Positions 7,845 to 63,592 of a stretch of DNA of 64,000 nucleotides are shown in pieces. This DNA comes from Methanoregula sp. PtaB.Bin085 (GTDB lineage Archaea > Halobacteriota > Methanomicrobia > Methanomicrobiales > Methanospirillaceae): positions 186,001-250,000 of the forward strand of contig NZ_MVQB01000027.1 of assembly GCF_002067035.1 (NCBI RefSeq). The letters run 5' to 3'. The notes beneath the pieces are model-generated. The model ran no database searches and was not told where the DNA came from. It saw only the letters and a program-made list of their open reading frames with translations. Every line of letters starts with the position of its first letter. Position 1 is the stretch's first letter. A program made the position numbers and the translations under genes.

Positions 7845-8435
7845 ATGACACCCGGCGATTCTGTTCAACCGCATCACCAGCACGCACTTTTCTCGGCAGA
7901 GAAAGCCTCCCGTCTCGACACCCCCCTGCGCCGTTTTCTCTACCGTCCCGACAGGCTCGCGGAGCAGTACGTGAAGCCGGGCGACCGGGTGCTCGACTTC
8001 GGCTGCGGTCCCGGGTTCTTCACCCGGGCCTTCGTAAAAAGGGTCGGGGACAACGGGCGGGTGTTCTCCGTCGACCTCCAGAAAGAGATGCTTGAGATTC
8101 TGGCAGGTAAACTAAAGCCCGAGGGGCTGATGTCCCGTATCACCACGCACCAGTGCAGGCCGGATACCATCGGCCTGCCTGCCGAACTGAACGGCACAAT
8201 CGATATCGCTTTTACCATATTTGTCGTCCATGAAGTCCCCGATCCGGCGAAACTTTTCCGGGAGATCGCCCTGCTTCTGAAACCGGGCGGAACGCTCTTT
8301 TTTTCCGAACCGCCCCTCGAGGTCCCGGGACGGGAGTTCCGTGAAAAGGTCGCGCTCGCTGAGGAGGCCGGGTTCCTGCAGATCGAGAGGCGGTTCTTCT
8401 TTGTGAACCGGGCAGTAGTGCTGAGGAAGGCGTAA
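7845..8435 (+). CDS. SAM-dependent class I methyltransferase
   Basis: A 196-residue methyltransferase with SAM motif VLDFGCGPGFFTRAF, an acidic FSVDLQKEM strand end and an LLLKPGGTLFFSEP post-I region. The C-terminal part is short, ending soon after the seventh strand (RRFFFVNRAVVLRK). It resembles the small UbiE-like methyltransferases common in methanogens; the acceptor molecule is unknown. I chose ATG 7845; a TTG two codons upstream is possible. It is separated from the DUF1330 pseudogene by about 120 bases, and a repeat island follows it. Confidence 0.85.
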   Translation: MTPGDSVQPHHQHALFSAEKASRLDTPLRRFLYRPDRLAEQYVKPGDRVLDFGCGPGFFTRAFVKRVGDNGRVFSVDLQKEMLEILAGKLKPEGLMSRITTHQCRPDTIGLPAELNGTIDIAFTIFVVHEVPDPAKLFREIALLLKPGGTLFFSEPPLEVPGREFREKVALAEEAGFLQIERRFFFVNRAVVLRKA

Positions 8436-8480
8436 GTGCCTGCCTTTTTACCTGGCTGAATCCCACGTGAAGGGAATGAT

Positions 8481-8518
8481 CCCCCACCCTCCTTGCGCCA
8501 ACCCTGACGCGGTCGGGA
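8481..8518 (+). repeat. GC-rich hairpin repeat, module A copy 1
   Basis: The core CCTTGCGCCAACCCTGACGC matches three other copies in the window (15263-15314 minus, 31353-31406 plus, 31990-32059 plus). Here the inner stem is degraded relative to the other copies. It sits just downstream of the methyltransferase gene and at the left edge of repeat island 1. Confidence 0.6.
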
Positions 8519-8531
8519 GTATATACTCCCG
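8514..8531. promoter_or_regulatory. Perfect 18-bp palindrome
   Basis: CGGGAGTATATACTCCCG equals its own reverse complement. It can form a stem in RNA or serve as a dimer binding site; the centre is also TATA-like. No gene starts close by on the plus strand, so a 3'-end or processing role for the upstream methyltransferase transcript is as likely as an operator. Confidence 0.5.
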
Positions 8532-8563
8532 TTCATGCATGGTCATCCGGAACAGCTGTTTCA

Positions 8564-8900
8564 AATCAGGGTCTGGTTGATCCGGATCGATTTTTCAATC
8601 GCCATCATGATCGCGATGGATTTTTTTGAATCAAAGTCTGCCTGAAATTTTTCAATCAGGGTTTGATGAAAAATTTTTCATCAGGGTCTGATGATCAAAA
8701 GTTAAACACATGTGCACGAGTGCACAGGATTCAGCCACGACGGGAGATCGCGCGAGTGTACCATTTTTCGATTAAAGTATGCTGAAAAAATTTCATTCAG
8801 GGTTTGATTGAAAATGAAAAATCAATGTCTGATTGAAAATGAAAAATCAGGGTTTGATCGATCTGTGAACGATTCTCAATCAGGATCATGATCGCGGTTG
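8564..8900. repeat. Repeat island 1: ATCAGGGTYTGAT repeats and GATC palindromes
   Basis: This AT-rich, non-coding stretch carries six recognisable copies of a 13-base unit ATCAGGGTYTGAT, itself a partial dyad. They start at about 8565, 8655, 8680, 8795, 8821 and 8846, with weaker copies near 8630. It also has two copies of a CATGATCGCG core (8604-8617 and 8887-8896) that recurs in islands 3 and 4. Spacing is irregular and there are no uniform spacers, so it is not a CRISPR array. I see no gene in 8436-8976. Confidence 0.65.
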
Positions 8901-8976
8901 GAAAAAACAGGAATGCTGGATGATAAACCGACACTCAAATTCTGCCGGAAAATGAATTGAGGAGGTATCCCCTGCT

Positions 8977-10314
8977 TCAGTTGATCCGGAGCCGTTCCCC
9001 GTTCCGCATGGGGTGGACATCCTTGTTCGCGGTATACCCGAGGTCACCGGCAAACTCGGCATAGCCTGCGGTCATCGTCAGGTCAGCGTGCGCCGGGATG
9101 ATGTGGCGGGGCTGCAGCATCTCGAGGAACTCGTAGTGATCCTCCCGGTAGGCATGGCCGCTGACATGCAGGTCCTCGAATGTTCTCGCGCCGAGCCTCT
9201 TCAGGTGACGGGATACCACGTACCGCTGCCCGACGTTCATCGGGTTCGGGATCACGTTCGCCGAGAAGAGGACCTTGTCACCCTTTCCCAGCTGGTAGGG
9301 TGTGTCGCCGAGGGCCATCCGCGTCAGGATCGACCCGGGCTCCCCCTGGTGGCCGGTCACGATGGGGACGAACTTGTCCTTGCCCTCCTTCATCATCCGC
9401 CGCATGACCCGGTCGACGGTCCTCCGATCCCCGAAGACGCTTGCGGTTTCCGGGAACGAGACGAACTTCATCTGTTCCGCGGTGACCGCGTACTTCTGCA
9501 TCGACCTGCCGAGGAAGACCGGTTTCCTGCCAATCTCGTGGGCGCATTCCGCGATGGTCTTCACCCGGGCGATATGGGAGGAGAACGTCGAGACAACGAT
9601 GGCGTTCTTGTCGTCCTCGTAACTGGTAATGACGTCCCGGACAAGGTCGCGGGCAACCCGCTCGCTCGGGCACCGGCCCGATCGGTGGATGTAGGTGCTT
9701 TCCACAATCAGGGCAAGAACCCCTTCCTTTCCCAGCTGCCGGAAGCGGGCAAAGTCAGGCGGCTTTCCGATGACCGGTGTCCGGTCGAACTTGAAGTCGC
9801 AGGCGTACACGATCGCACCGTGGGGCGTATGGAGAACCGGCGTCACGGTATCGATGATCGAGTGCTGCGTGTGCACGAACTCGAGGACAAGGTTCGGCGA
9901 GAGCGTGTACCGCTGGCCGGCGCCGAGAGCAAAGAGACGGTTGTTCACCCCGAATTTTTTCTCCCCGGATATCTGCTGCCGGATCAGTTCGGTGGCATAG
10001 GGTGTGGCGATGATAGGTGCCTTGTACCGGTGTGCGAGCTTGGGGATGGCCCCGATGTGGTCGAGATGCCCGTGGGAGCAGACGATTGCTTTTACCGTGC
10101 CTTCGACCTTCTGAAGCACCGTGTCGTCCGGGATTGCCCTGATCTTGATAAGATCGAGAGAGTGCATCTCATCCACCTCGGCATCCTCGTGGATCATCAG
10201 CTGGTCGAGGCGGAGGCCCATATCGAAGATGACGATCTCCTTTCCGCAGCGGACGGCAGTCATGTTCCGCCCGACTTCATCATATCCGCCTACGGCGATT
10301 ATTTCTATTTCCAT
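8977..10314 (-). CDS. rnj: Archaeal ribonuclease J (beta-CASP metallo-beta-lactamase)
   Basis: The 445-residue product is a beta-CASP nuclease of the RNase J group, expected to act as a 5'-3' exoribonuclease in RNA turnover. The metallo-beta-lactamase motif 2 is CSHGHLDHIG (near residue 80), with further ligands in AYACDFKFD and the C-terminal SGHAYREDH and PAHADL segments. There are no KH domains, so it is not the aCPSF1 or aCPSF2 type. It begins MEIEIIAVGGYDEVGRNM, the usual start of archaeal RNase J. The upstream leader (10315-10504) contains strong hairpins that may matter for control. Confidence 0.93.
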   Translation of the reverse strand: MEIEIIAVGGYDEVGRNMTAVRCGKEIVIFDMGLRLDQLMIHEDAEVDEMHSLDLIKIRAIPDDTVLQKVEGTVKAIVCSHGHLDHIGAIPKLAHRYKAPIIATPYATELIRQQISGEKKFGVNNRLFALGAGQRYTLSPNLVLEFVHTQHSIIDTVTPVLHTPHGAIVYACDFKFDRTPVIGKPPDFARFRQLGKEGVLALIVESTYIHRSGRCPSERVARDLVRDVITSYEDDKNAIVVSTFSSHIARVKTIAECAHEIGRKPVFLGRSMQKYAVTAEQMKFVSFPETASVFGDRRTVDRVMRRMMKEGKDKFVPIVTGHQGEPGSILTRMALGDTPYQLGKGDKVLFSANVIPNPMNVGQRYVVSRHLKRLGARTFEDLHVSGHAYREDHYEFLEMLQPRHIIPAHADLTMTAGYAEFAGDLGYTANKDVHPMRNGERLRIN

Positions 10315-58336: not shown

Positions 58337-59887
58337 TTATTTTCTTTCCAGGTGCATGAACGATTTGTAGAAATCAATTTTCGACTTCGTTAACGAAGAC
58401 GGAGTATTCTCAATAATGAATTCCAATAATTCTTGCTCTAATTCGTCAAGACCATCTTTGAAAGCTTTTCTTGCAGCCTCGTTTACGATGAGAGCGATAT
58501 CCGAACTGGCGTAATTTTCTGTTTTCTTTGCCAGCGCATCCAGATTGATATCTTGAGATTGTGATCGGCCTTCTAACTGTTTTCTGAATAGGTCTTTTCT
58601 TGCATCAAAATCCGGTGGCGGGATGTAAACGCGCTTGTCCATTCTACCAGAACGCATGATTGCATCATCAATTGCATCAGGTTTATTCGTCGCACCGATG
58701 ACCAAAACCTTATGTTCACTGGCATTGTTCATCTGCGTGAGGAACTCGTTAATCTCTTCCTGTTTCCATTGTTCCGAACCTAATGATTCCCTTTTCGGAA
58801 CTAGAGCTTCGATTTCATCAAAGAATAGAATTGTAGGTGCATTGTCGGTTGCTTCTTTAAAGATTTTAGCGATATTTCCTGATGTTTCATGAGCCCATTT
58901 GGACCCAACATCTGACGCTGAAAATTCTTTGTAATTATAACCGATTTCTTCCGCCAATTTTCGAACAATGAATGTTTTTCCACAACCCGGTGGACCAAAG
59001 AATAAAAAGCCATTCGGGATACTTACACCCAATTTTTTTGCTTCTTCCGCTCGATTTAAAGGTTCGATAATATCCTTTGTTAAAATGTCTTTGACATCCT
59101 GCATACCTGCAACACAGGCAAAACCCTTTGGTCCAGATTCTTTTTTCGTCTTTTCTGGTCGTTTAAAAGATTTTTTAGGCTTTTCTGTGGTTTTATCATC
59201 AGATTGTTTTGAGGATTGTTCCTTTTTATCAGATAATTTTACAGGAACATCATCGGCTTTTTCCTCTTCATCTTCATCACTTTCGTTGTCTTCACTGTCA
59301 GTTTCTGAAACCGACTCAATTATGGTAAGGACTATCGCCAGATCAGGGCTATCCGGATCGATCTCTTTAGCTTCTTCAATGAGTTCATTTGCTTCGTCGA
59401 TGTCTCCTTGCAAATACAGAACTAAAGCTTTTCCGGATAGGGCTTGCACATTTTCATCATTCAATTCAAGGGCGGACTCATAATATGGAAGGGCCTCATC
59501 CATTTTTTCTAAAGAAACGTATGATTCCGCTATCGTAACAAAGGCGGTAACTTCATCGTCAGGGATTAATCCAAACTCTAAAGCCTTATTGATATTTTTT
59601 ATTGCAAGTCGGTATTTTTCCTGATCGTATAGGACGCACCCTTTCCGTAGAAATGCCTCAGCATAATCAGGTTGAAGCGTTGTGCACATATCGAAGGATT
59701 CGTATGCATCATCCAGCATACCGAGTGCGTGATAAGATAATCCTAAGTTGAACCAGACATTCTGATCTTGATTATCGATTTCTAAGGCCTTATGATATGC
59801 TTCAACGGCCTTATCAAAATCCCCGTTATCGATATGCTTTCCACCGAGACCGAACCATTCTTCTTTTGTTTTTCTAAAAATCCCCAT
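58337..59887 (-). CDS. TPR-AAA ATPase fusion protein (AT-rich, probably acquired)
   Basis: The 516-residue product has an N-terminal run of about four to five TPR units (residues about 20-180, for example NVWFNLGLSYHALGMLDDAY). A highly charged linker follows (about 195-250, runs of Asp/Glu then Lys/Ser). An AAA+ domain has Walker A GPPGCGKT at 298-305, Walker B ILFFDEIE at 353-360, sensor 1 VIGATN and Arg fingers in RSGRMDKRV. It looks active. Its sequence is much more AT-rich than the genes to the left. The AAA core resembles Vps4/katanin-type enzymes. TPR-AAA fusions like this may act in protein complexes or defence; context is an island with a kinase operon. Confidence 0.85.
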   Translation of the reverse strand: MGIFRKTKEEWFGLGGKHIDNGDFDKAVEAYHKALEIDNQDQNVWFNLGLSYHALGMLDDAYESFDMCTTLQPDYAEAFLRKGCVLYDQEKYRLAIKNINKALEFGLIPDDEVTAFVTIAESYVSLEKMDEALPYYESALELNDENVQALSGKALVLYLQGDIDEANELIEEAKEIDPDSPDLAIVLTIIESVSETDSEDNESDEDEEEKADDVPVKLSDKKEQSSKQSDDKTTEKPKKSFKRPEKTKKESGPKGFACVAGMQDVKDILTKDIIEPLNRAEEAKKLGVSIPNGFLFFGPPGCGKTFIVRKLAEEIGYNYKEFSASDVGSKWAHETSGNIAKIFKEATDNAPTILFFDEIEALVPKRESLGSEQWKQEEINEFLTQMNNASEHKVLVIGATNKPDAIDDAIMRSGRMDKRVYIPPPDFDARKDLFRKQLEGRSQSQDINLDALAKKTENYASSDIALIVNEAARKAFKDGLDELEQELLEFIIENTPSSLTKSKIDFYKSFMHLERK

Positions 59888-59989: not shown

Positions 59990-60450
59990 ACTACTGGCAT
60001 GATCTTTTGTTTCCAATATCTGCAGAAATCGGTATGCCGGATTGTACGGATCAATACCGATATCGAATCCTGTTTTTTTCCTGAAAAAAGAATCCCGATA
60101 TTCACGTCAAAATCGATCCCTGATCAATCCGGAGAAATTTTCAATCACGATCATGATCGCGATTTGCAAACAAAAATCGCGGATCGATTTGAAAAAAATT
60201 TTCGGGATCCGATTTTGATCTGAAAATCGCTGATCGATTTTCGTACGAAAATCGGATCCCGATTCTACGCTCCGTCTGTGGTGCAGTACATCAAACCGTT
60301 TTTCAATCGCGGATCGATTTGAAAATAAAATTCGAGGATCGATTTTGATCCGGAAATCGATGATCGATTTTCGTTCGAAAATCGGATCCCGATTTTTCCG
60401 GAAATGTTTTCAGTCGCGATCACGATCGCGGTTGGAATCTGAAAACCGGG
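59990..60450. repeat. Repeat island 4: GATC-rich palindromic repeats
   Basis: The same family as island 3, largely in the opposite orientation: AAAATCGGATCCCGATT, GCGGATCGATTTGAAAA and two CGATCAYGATCGCG cores (60148-60161 and 60418-60431). The stretch around 60237-60285 (TTTTCGTACGAAAATCGGAT then CCGTCTGTGG) is the inverted counterpart of 31755-31815. No CRISPR-like regularity and no supported gene. Confidence 0.75.
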
Positions 60451-60736: not shown

Positions 60737-61069
60737 CCCCCGGTATTTTACGACGTGCTGCACCCCGAAAAACCCCTGTAAAATCCGGGCCCGCAGCGTG
60801 CCCTGTTGGACGTCTTTTACCACACCGCCAAGTTGGGAGAGGCAATGATTCGTGAAAAACGCGGAATCCGGGCCGGAAAACAGGGGCGATCTCCGGCGGG
60901 AAATCAAGAGGCAGTGTATAGCAACGTTATAGCGGCTTTGGGAAGGAGGGGGTGTGGTTTGGGAGGTTATTAAGGCTCCAGGAGTAATTCCTTGCGGATA
61001 TAGAAATCATTAAGGTATGAGAGATTATCAGTGACTATATAATAACAAATTTGATAATGGTGTACTCAA

Positions 61070-61918
61070 TTGAGCAATGTTGAAAGCGATGATGTAATCT
61101 GTAATTTCTCAAATCCACAAAAAATACATGAAGGGGGACAGAGAGTCGTATTTAGAGTCGACAACCCCACATATGGATTTGCGGCATTAAAGATCGGATA
61201 TTATGCAACTCCAACAAATCCAATAGGTTGGGAATTATCACGTATTGAGAGAGAAGTAGAAATATTAAGGCAAATTAATTCACATTTTTATCCGAAAAAT
61301 TACGATTTCCAGATAATTTCGAAAAACCGTTATCTTATTCTTGAAGAATTTCTTAATTCACCGCAGCTCACACAACGCATGGAAAGATTTTATTCTCCAT
61401 TTACGGCATTGAACCTCATAAAACAATTAGCTGTAGGATTAAAAATCATCTGGGATAAAAAAATTGTGCATCGCGATATTAAACCAGATAATATTCTCAT
61501 CAACGATGATAATTCCCCTAGAATCATAGATCTTGGTATAGCTCGAGTACTCGATCTGGATTCAATTACCCAAACAAAATATGGGGGGCCATTATCCAGA
61601 GATTATGCTGCTCCAGAGCAACATAGGTATAATAAGTCGTTAATTAACTGGAGAACCGATCAGTATAACCTGGGGATCATTTTAATGCAGTTATTACTGA
61701 AAGGTCAACACCCATTCTCCCCTACATTGGTCGGTGGAAAATCAATACGAGATAATATTCTTAATAACAATTGGTACCGGAATGCCTTTTCTGATAAGAG
61801 CTTTTTTCCAATACAATCACTCGCTACAAATTTGTTGGGTTATGAACAATACGACCGATACAGGACGTTTGAACTTTTCATGGAGGATCTTAATTACAGT
61901 CTGGAGTTGATGAGATGA
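61070..61918 (+). CDS. Eukaryote-like Ser/Thr protein kinase
   Basis: The 282-residue product is a full kinase domain and nothing more. A Gly-rich loop is in IHEGGQRVVFRV; Lys41 lies in FAALKIG with a Glu-containing helix (residues 60-64). The catalytic loop HRDIKPDN is at 134-141, the metal Asp154 in IIDLGIAR (DLG in place of DFG), and APE at 181-183. All catalytic residues are kept, so it should be active. There is no membrane helix or sensor domain. The start is TTG 61070. Its stop overlaps the next gene by ATGA. It is strongly AT-rich versus core genes and heads a three-gene operon. Confidence 0.9.
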   Translation: MSNVESDDVICNFSNPQKIHEGGQRVVFRVDNPTYGFAALKIGYYATPTNPIGWELSRIEREVEILRQINSHFYPKNYDFQIISKNRYLILEEFLNSPQLTQRMERFYSPFTALNLIKQLAVGLKIIWDKKIVHRDIKPDNILINDDNSPRIIDLGIARVLDLDSITQTKYGGPLSRDYAAPEQHRYNKSLINWRTDQYNLGIILMQLLLKGQHPFSPTLVGGKSIRDNILNNNWYRNAFSDKSFFPIQSLATNLLGYEQYDRYRTFELFMEDLNYSLELMR

Positions 61919-63105
61919 CATTTGAAATTTACCACCAATTGGGTCACAGAGACAAATGGAGTATTGATAGTTATCAAGAGGATGGAACTGGGGAAGGAGT
62001 CATTATTTCTCCGCGCAGCAGAAAAAAAGGAAAAGTTGAGTCTTTGCCCACGATTGTGAAAAATAAAGCAATTTTTGATCCTCAGTTTTTCAACCCGAAT
62101 GCTGCAATAAAAAAAATGGATTCGTATGATTTTTATCCGGATTTATTGATGCCGGGTGGCTTTGAAACGAACCGATATCCAAATTATTGTTCAACCGTTG
62201 CGGAAAAATGTGTTAATTTCCAGATAAAAAATAATTTCAGATATTTGGTAATTCCTACAAGATTCTACGAAGGAGCGCCAGATGTTGAACAATTTGTGCA
62301 AAATCAAGAGACAAATTTTGTCACTCCTTTTTTAGAGGCTCGAAATAATCTCAATCCAAGTAAGGATGTAATTCTTCAACTAGTTCTCACGGCACACATG
62401 TTAAAAAATAAATCATTTACAGATTATTTGCTAACGTGGATAACTGGTTTAGAAGGTTTAAAAGGAATCTACCTTATTACAGAATTATTACCACGAACCT
62501 CTCAAATTACTGACGCCGAATTCTTACTAAATTTAATGAACTTTGTCCATGTACTCAATAAAAATAAAATGATTATTGTTCTGGGCTACCTCAATAGTGA
62601 ATCTCTGGTATTATCGATTGCAAATCCATCAATAGTGACTATTGGTTCATTCGGTAATTTACGAATATTTAATTCAAAAATGTTTGAAGAAACAGAAACT
62701 GGTGAGATAAAAGTACCGAGTTATAAAATATATTCACCTGTCCTTCTTGATTGGATTGATGCTCCCTATGTAGATTTAATGAGAAATCGATCCTTGGTTA
62801 ACGATGACTTTTTCGGGGATAATGAATATCTTGAGACTATGTTCGGAACCGGATATAACGGCAGTGCCCAAAGCAGTGAACCATACAAACATTATTTTGT
62901 AGAGATCTCAAAACAATTAAAAGAAATTCGAGCCCTTGTCGGTGCGAACAGATATTCTAAGGTGAGTGAAATAATTCAAAATGCTATTGAAGAATATTCT
63001 CGAATTAACAGCACGGGAATTGAAATAGGAAGACAGGGTGCATTCACGACTCAATTTGCAACTGCGGCAAATTTATTTGCCCGCGACCAAGGTTGGAGAA
63101 GCTAA
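61915..63105 (+). CDS. Unknown 396-residue protein between kinase and nuclease
   Basis: I do not recognise the family. The protein is soluble, with no membrane segment or signal. It has an early segment with PRSRKKGKVE, a conserved-looking YPNYCSTVAEKCVNFQ helix, and an alternating strand/helix middle (LKGIYLITELLP; NKMIIVLGYLNSES; NPSIVTIGSFGNLRI) that hints at a TIM-barrel-like fold. A helical C-terminal region follows (KQLKEIRALVGANRYSKVSE). Several Ser/Thr make it a possible kinase target. It overlaps the kinase by four bases and is followed after three bases by the nuclease-like gene. Confidence 0.75.
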   Translation: MTFEIYHQLGHRDKWSIDSYQEDGTGEGVIISPRSRKKGKVESLPTIVKNKAIFDPQFFNPNAAIKKMDSYDFYPDLLMPGGFETNRYPNYCSTVAEKCVNFQIKNNFRYLVIPTRFYEGAPDVEQFVQNQETNFVTPFLEARNNLNPSKDVILQLVLTAHMLKNKSFTDYLLTWITGLEGLKGIYLITELLPRTSQITDAEFLLNLMNFVHVLNKNKMIIVLGYLNSESLVLSIANPSIVTIGSFGNLRIFNSKMFEETETGEIKVPSYKIYSPVLLDWIDAPYVDLMRNRSLVNDDFFGDNEYLETMFGTGYNGSAQSSEPYKHYFVEISKQLKEIRALVGANRYSKVSEIIQNAIEEYSRINSTGIEIGRQGAFTTQFATAANLFARDQGWRS

Positions 63106-63108
63106 AAA

Positions 63109-63540
63109 ATGGCATATAAAACTGAGGCTGAGATGGTGGAGGCTATTAAAAGGGCTGAGCAAATCCACAATTTCATGATTTCAGGAAAAAGTATAATGCA
63201 AGAGCAAGTCGCAGGTTTTTTTGGTGTTCCTGATATTATATTTATTAAGAGGAATAAGGAGAAACAAATTTCGTACGCATATGAAGCAAAACTTACTAAT
63301 TGGACTCGGGCATTAACGCAAGCTTTCCGCTATAAAGCATTCGTCAATAAATCATTTGTAATTTTAGATCACGATCATGTAGAACCTGCATTGTCGAATA
63401 CGGATAAATTTTGTAAAGCCAATGTTGGATTGATAAGTATCGACGACTCAGGTTCTATCCATTGTCATTATAATCCGTTTTTCGAAGAGCCGTATTCTCC
63501 GAGATTAGAAGAAAAGTTCAATGAAAAATTTCAATTATAA
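63109..63540 (+). CDS. PD-(D/E)XK nuclease-like protein
   Basis: The 143-residue product shows a PD-(D/E)XK core: GVPDIIFI with Asp42, then YAYEAKL with Glu59 and Lys61, and a following helix with Gln71 (ALTQAFRYKAF). Acidic residues before the first strand (Glu17, Glu32) may complete the site. This fold is used by restriction enzymes and many defence nucleases. It is the third gene of the kinase operon, beginning three bases after its neighbour. There is no separate DNA-recognition domain, so a partner probably supplies specificity. Confidence 0.78.
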   Translation: MAYKTEAEMVEAIKRAEQIHNFMISGKSIMQEQVAGFFGVPDIIFIKRNKEKQISYAYEAKLTNWTRALTQAFRYKAFVNKSFVILDHDHVEPALSNTDKFCKANVGLISIDDSGSIHCHYNPFFEEPYSPRLEEKFNEKFQL

Positions 63541-63592
63541 TTGATTAATATAGTATAATTCGGTTTAATTAAGAATTTTTTTTGTATGAGAA

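Follow-up and report, generated by a model that had tools for sequence, protein, structure and literature searches.

A conserved kinase, barrel-protein and nuclease gene trio from Methanoregula: a probable undescribed system of antiviral or anti-mobile-DNA defence

Three adjoining genes of Methanoregula sp. PtaB.Bin085, coding for a Ser/Thr kinase (K), a protein of a new family (X; TIM barrel, predicted) and a predicted minimal nuclease (N), were found together again in 31 loci outside the window (the whole 64,000-nt stretch of DNA that was analysed), 32 trios in total with that of the window. The association is far beyond chance, since it is repeated in these 31 loci; K, X and N are a conserved unit of unrelated genomes with differing flanks. 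The original prediction had proposed a search for the three genes as a unit, and was to be given up if the homologues never stood together elsewhere; the search returned all three side by side in each of the further loci. The trio combines a new protein family with known principles of nuclease-based immunity in a new arrangement, and probably constitutes an undescribed system that protects against viruses or mobile DNA. No named system with this trio was known at the outset, and none is described in the literature searched; a description was not found in the searchable open literature, most subscription papers and preprints lying beyond that search.

Genes of the window: K, 61070–61918, plus strand, TTG start, 282 aa; X, 61915–63105, plus strand, 396 aa; N, 63109–63540, plus strand, 143 aa. 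K and X share an ATGA overlap (61915–61918), and X and N are separated by a 3-base gap (63106–63108); the joining of the genes was thus correctly predicted. A TATA-box-like TATATAAT was read from the sequence at 61036–61043 (plus strand), 27 nt upstream of the TTG start of K, and its position would imply a leaderless or near-leaderless transcript; a run of 8 T at 63576–63583 (plus strand), after the stop codon of N, may be an archaeal terminator. Both signals are consistent with a single archaeal transcription unit for K, X and N. The trio lies on one strand within an AT-rich island beside core genes, as had been noted (GC: trio 35.5%, whole window 56.3%). The same island holds a gene of a TPR and AAA ATPase protein (58337–59887, minus strand, 39.6% GC); its best PADLOC matches were IetA models (E=3.3e-32), and no IetS-like protease was recognised. 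It was rejected as a partner of the trio, no close homologue adjoining any other trio. Between this gene and the trio, at 60083–60446, there are two direct 90-nt copies (88% identical) and many overlapping inverted repeats made from GATCGATTTT/AAAATCGGATC elements.

K matched Pfam PF00069 (Pkinase) with E=1.4e-26 and has the full catalytic set of a soluble Hanks-type Ser/Thr kinase (ALK lysine, alpha-C Glu, HRDIKPDN, DLG, APE), in agreement with the intact soluble kinase that had been proposed; the motifs are intact and conserved across the aligned homologous trio kinases. PD-T4-6 is a stand-alone Ser/Thr kinase defence gene. K scored E=1.6e-32 against the PADLOC model of PD-T4-6, so automated annotation may give it this label; the match, however, covers the kinase domain only, and K as a stand-alone PD-T4-6 was rejected because its gene forms one conserved unit with those of X and N. 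If the trio defends, other kinases annotated as PD-T4-6 may likewise belong to larger units. PglW of type 2 BREX unites a NERD nuclease and a Ser/Thr kinase in one defence protein (PMC12839542) and resembles the trio in the pairing of a restriction-type nuclease with such a kinase; PglW is, however, one large multi-domain protein within BREX, whereas K is small. K as PglW was rejected: 20.7 bits against an NCBIfam cut-off of 990; no BREX core gene recognised near the trio.

N gave no detectable PD-(D/E)XK match in sequence libraries, a curated match being absent, and no match in a sequence search of the PDB. Its AlphaFold2 model (24 homologues; pLDDT 91, pTM 0.86) has a predicted core of the order alpha-beta-beta-beta-alpha-beta, which is restriction-enzyme-like; Foldseek with this model gave PaqCI as the best match (TMq 0.64), followed by AF2093, FokI and BamHI. 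E6, D42, E59, K61 and Q71 are invariant among the 24 homologues, and the pattern E6-D42-E59xK61-Q71 corresponds to D...(D/E)xK plus a helix Glu and a Gln. N is therefore a predicted minimal PD-(D/E)XK nuclease with putative metal-dependent DNA cleavage; the nuclease assignment of the third protein, which a structure of another fold would have overturned, is supported by the predicted fold and by the invariant catalytic residues. In many relatives of N an inserted, winged-helix-like segment separates the D motif from ExK; N of the window is without it.

X gave nothing above noise against Pfam, PADLOC, NCBIfam and PHROGs, so the 396-residue protein is of no family in these four libraries, as had been supposed; a sequence search of the PDB gave no match. 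The AlphaFold2 model (21 sequences; pLDDT 86, pTM 0.89) shows eight strands in TIM-barrel order and a C-terminal helical subdomain, and X is accordingly described as a new family with a predicted TIM barrel, a fold common to many unrelated families. Foldseek with the model returned generic TIM barrels from the PDB and, from a viral library, a protein like tRNA-guanine transglycosylase (TGT; TMq 0.41). TIM barrels bind ligands at the C-terminal ends of their strands. In the model D55/P56, P114 and G244 are placed just after strands 3, 4 and 8; D55 and P56, at the C-terminal mouth of strand 3, are invariant in 28 X proteins.

Kinship of X with the TGT superfamily is suggested by its divergent members. 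A CxCxxC...H motif, at the place of the TGT zinc site, was found in X of Priestia, Kineococcus and two archaeal relatives; the zinc cysteines are absent from X of the window. The divergent zinc-type X and the main X family were aligned by hhalign with a probability of 99.94%, two of the five rows being common to both alignments. Zinc-type X against TGT gave E=0.0019 and a probability of 14.5% (DHDPS and TIM controls: E ~0.38), and in this alignment CxCxxC falls at the zinc cysteines of TGT. With the main X profile the comparison with TGT gave no significant score and was barely above the DHDPS or TIM controls. PF01702 was matched neither by the 21 members nor by the divergent members. Because of the probability of 14.5% and the unmatched PF01702, the kinship is put forward as suggestive. 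TGT catalysis uses two aspartates; D55 is the sole invariant Asp in the 28 X proteins, the equivalence of residues with TGT coming from a weak alignment.

Hosts of the trio belong to Euryarchaeota, Pseudomonadota, Actinomycetota, Bacillota, Myxococcota, Planctomycetota and Hydrogenedentota; four trios are on plasmids and one is on a viral contig. The X profile was positive in 5 of 295 genomes of the phylum, with K and N adjoining X in all five. An N-anchored scan of genome contigs gave 24 bacterial loci: in 19 all three genes were present, the kinase frame being split in one of them; four were interrupted by contig ends, and one (L040) was degraded to N and a truncated X. An X-anchored search of two bacterial families, with the centre genomes left out, gave four X matches, three of which were trios; the fourth was weak, partial and without partners. 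No trio was found in other genomes of the proteobacterial class (n=368), and genome contigs scanned with X alone gave no match. On tblastn of plasmids, X was located near N in a Natribaculum plasmid, and N matches were obtained in Polaromonas, Kineococcus, Priestia and Halorubrum plasmids; the full set of K, X and N was present in four of the five (Natribaculum, Polaromonas, Kineococcus, Priestia). One trio was found in the viral collection (L146, IMGVR_UViG_3300047328_000107; order N-K-X), and no copy in 50,697 phage records. The distribution is very patchy, about 2% of genomes or less.

In every trio K is upstream of X on the same strand. N has three placements: on the strand of K and X it is upstream or, in the window and genome G238, downstream; on the opposite strand it is downstream. 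In Priestia a single protein of 677 aa comprises both K and X, a fusion that supports contact between the two. The three proteins have congruent distance matrices (Mantel rho 0.53–0.62, p=0.0005), host relatedness being included in the signal. In the trees of X and of K the copies of the window and of G238 fall with those of Cellvibrio, Oceanobacter and Variovorax, not with the haloarchaea, and this grouping points to transfer between domains; distances of N alone gave no proteobacterial grouping of the window copy. That the trio is mobile is plain from its carriage.

Neighbours of the trios include a TniB/Mu-type transposase, an integrase, DUF1016, AAA ATPases, an Mrr enzyme and a type IIG-like enzyme, and one trio lies within a Tn5053-like transposon. 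PADLOC listed type I, IIG and III restriction enzymes among 150 trio-neighbour proteins, and RM methylase and specificity genes, generic ATPases and kinases among 145 proteins of random regions, the control having contained an RM locus; the comparison mildly favours a defence neighbourhood, without a strict count of enrichment, since PADLOC reports families and not proteins. RM, integrase and transposase genes adjoin the trio elsewhere; the window's own island has no other clearly recognised defence system. One neighbour taken up as a restriction enzyme (L053:5-2584) was rejected; it is a glycosyl hydrolase. Plasmids, the Tn5053-like transposon, the integrase, RM genes and the viral contig together favour an accessory conflict role.

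The trio is accordingly best read as a horizontally mobile conflict cassette of three components, directed against invaders: N would be the effector, X a sensor or adaptor and K the regulator. We regard this explanation as reasonably probable. N would be a PD-(D/E)XK nuclease that cuts, presumably, DNA once released or activated. X, a TIM-barrel sensor or adaptor that may derive from the TGT superfamily, would bind a ligand at the C-terminal mouth of the barrel, perhaps a nucleobase or nucleotide, a nucleic acid or a modified peptide, and its recognition would be coupled to N. K, a Hanks kinase in complex with X, would set the state of X or N via phosphorylation; activation and restraint of N are both possible, and the Panacea exchange described below leans to restraint. 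No phage-sensing domain is recognisable in the trio. We infer the defence role from how patchy and mobile the trio is, from the company it keeps, and by analogy with PglW (PMC12839542) and with Cap10 of type IV CBASS, a TGT-family protein remodelled for protein binding in phage defence (PMC11996544). Cap10 is a precedent for a TGT-family protein as binding partner; the trio differs in that no CD-NTase or QueC-like gene was recognised next to it and in that the kinship of X with TGT is weakly supported. A narrower form of the cassette reading is tentative, and on balance doubtful: a kinase-coupled, catalytically repurposed TGT-like barrel would sense a nucleobase-related ligand or modified end in infection and license N, kinase and Panacea would be interchangeable safety catches, and the trio would be a new anti-phage type. 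In either form the interest lies in a compact three-gene unit common to archaea, bacteria, plasmids and a virus, with an X family that four public libraries do not recognise; if the trio defends, it adds a kinase-controlled nuclease system with a possible relative of a tRNA-modifying enzyme as sensor or adaptor.

The same mechanism could serve the carrier instead of the host, as a superinfection-exclusion or inter-element competition cassette directed by mobile elements against rival phages or plasmids, with the benefit going to the element. The copy of L146, which follows terminase and head-morphogenesis genes and precedes a head-protease gene, is amid the head and packaging genes of a viral contig, and this agrees with such a use, as do the copies on plasmids and on the Tn5053-like element; many copies, however, are on large chromosomal contigs, and the viral collection and the 50,697 phage records yielded the single viral copy between them. 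We consider this account unlikely.

In two archaea a Panacea gene adjoins N and X in the order Panacea-N-X, no kinase being seen (L029, 1320–3534; L030, 7802–10057; one contig of only 4.7 kb). X of both loci is zinc-type, the Panacea gene stands where K would stand, and Panacea is absent from the window locus; neither viral contigs nor the remaining genomes of the phylum sample yielded X of the Panacea type. Experiments have established Panacea as an antitoxin domain (PMC8832971). Its standing in the place of K suggests a regulator that keeps N-X in check until infection, and two alternative regulators, kinase and Panacea antitoxin, on the same N-X core make effector regulation directly testable. 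The likeness to PanAT is confined to these two archaea; the common form of the trio has a kinase, and the passages of PMC8832971 consulted do not describe such a three-protein core. The two kinase-less loci, along with the occurrence of the trio on plasmids, would also suit a toxin-antitoxin or addiction module in which N is the toxin, K (or Panacea) the neutraliser and X a chaperone or scaffold, serving maintenance of plasmid or island and not phage defence. Known toxin-antitoxin pairs are, however, mostly two small genes, whereas the trio keeps a 30-kDa kinase and a 45-kDa barrel across phyla; moreover, one copy is carried among the structural genes of a phage, and N is sometimes on the strand opposite K and X, which is unusual for such modules. 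This account appears less likely again. In two haloarchaeal trios a metallophosphoesterase gene directly follows or overlaps X (L002, 8198–8887; L022, 5612–6298), possibly an opposing phosphatase; being present only in these loci, it was rejected as a fourth component and is an accessory at most.

A restriction-modification-like system, in the manner of Dpd, would have X as an active TGT-family enzyme that marks host DNA with 7-deazaguanine or another modified base, N as the nuclease that cuts unmarked DNA, and K as the regulator. The predicted TIM barrel of X, the CxCxxC...H at the TGT zinc position in divergent members, and the precedent of DpdA, a TGT homologue of an RM-like system (PMC12839542), speak for it. 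The trio resembles Dpd in that a TIM-barrel protein, possibly a TGT relative, shares its locus with a nuclease. Dpd as described has no kinase (PMC12839542), whereas the trio has one, and X, whose kinship with TGT is unproven, has no PF01702 match and one invariant Asp against the two used by TGT. QueC was absent from 6 of 15 carriers, among them all five actinobacterial genomes (salvage is possible), and TGT was not found in the three actinobacterial carriers tested; host 7-deazaguanine synthesis is therefore not generally required, which argues against a mechanism in need of it, and no 7-deazaguanine genes were recognised next to the trio. A marking enzyme is, on this evidence, improbable. 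A host regulatory or DNA-repair module, the kinase controlling a repair nuclease and with no conflict role, is very improbable: repair, too, employs Hanks kinases and PD-(D/E)XK nucleases, but the very patchy distribution, transfer between domains and carriage by plasmid, transposon and virus speak against it.

Two loci are probably decaying copies: L053, with its kinase (8270–9130) split into two frames, and L040 (8365–9153), with a truncated X and the kinase absent. N-like proteins were also found without this X, in other contexts, in the 295 genomes of the phylum. In two haloarchaea, relatives of N adjoin DNA methyltransferase-like genes (SPPYF motif), or lie one gene off, as RM-like pairs (L026, 7709–10421; L027, 9873–12743). 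A further archaeal relative, beside a Cdc48-like ATPase (L028, 8973–9608), has lost the ExK motif (VQVYSG) and is probably a dead nuclease.
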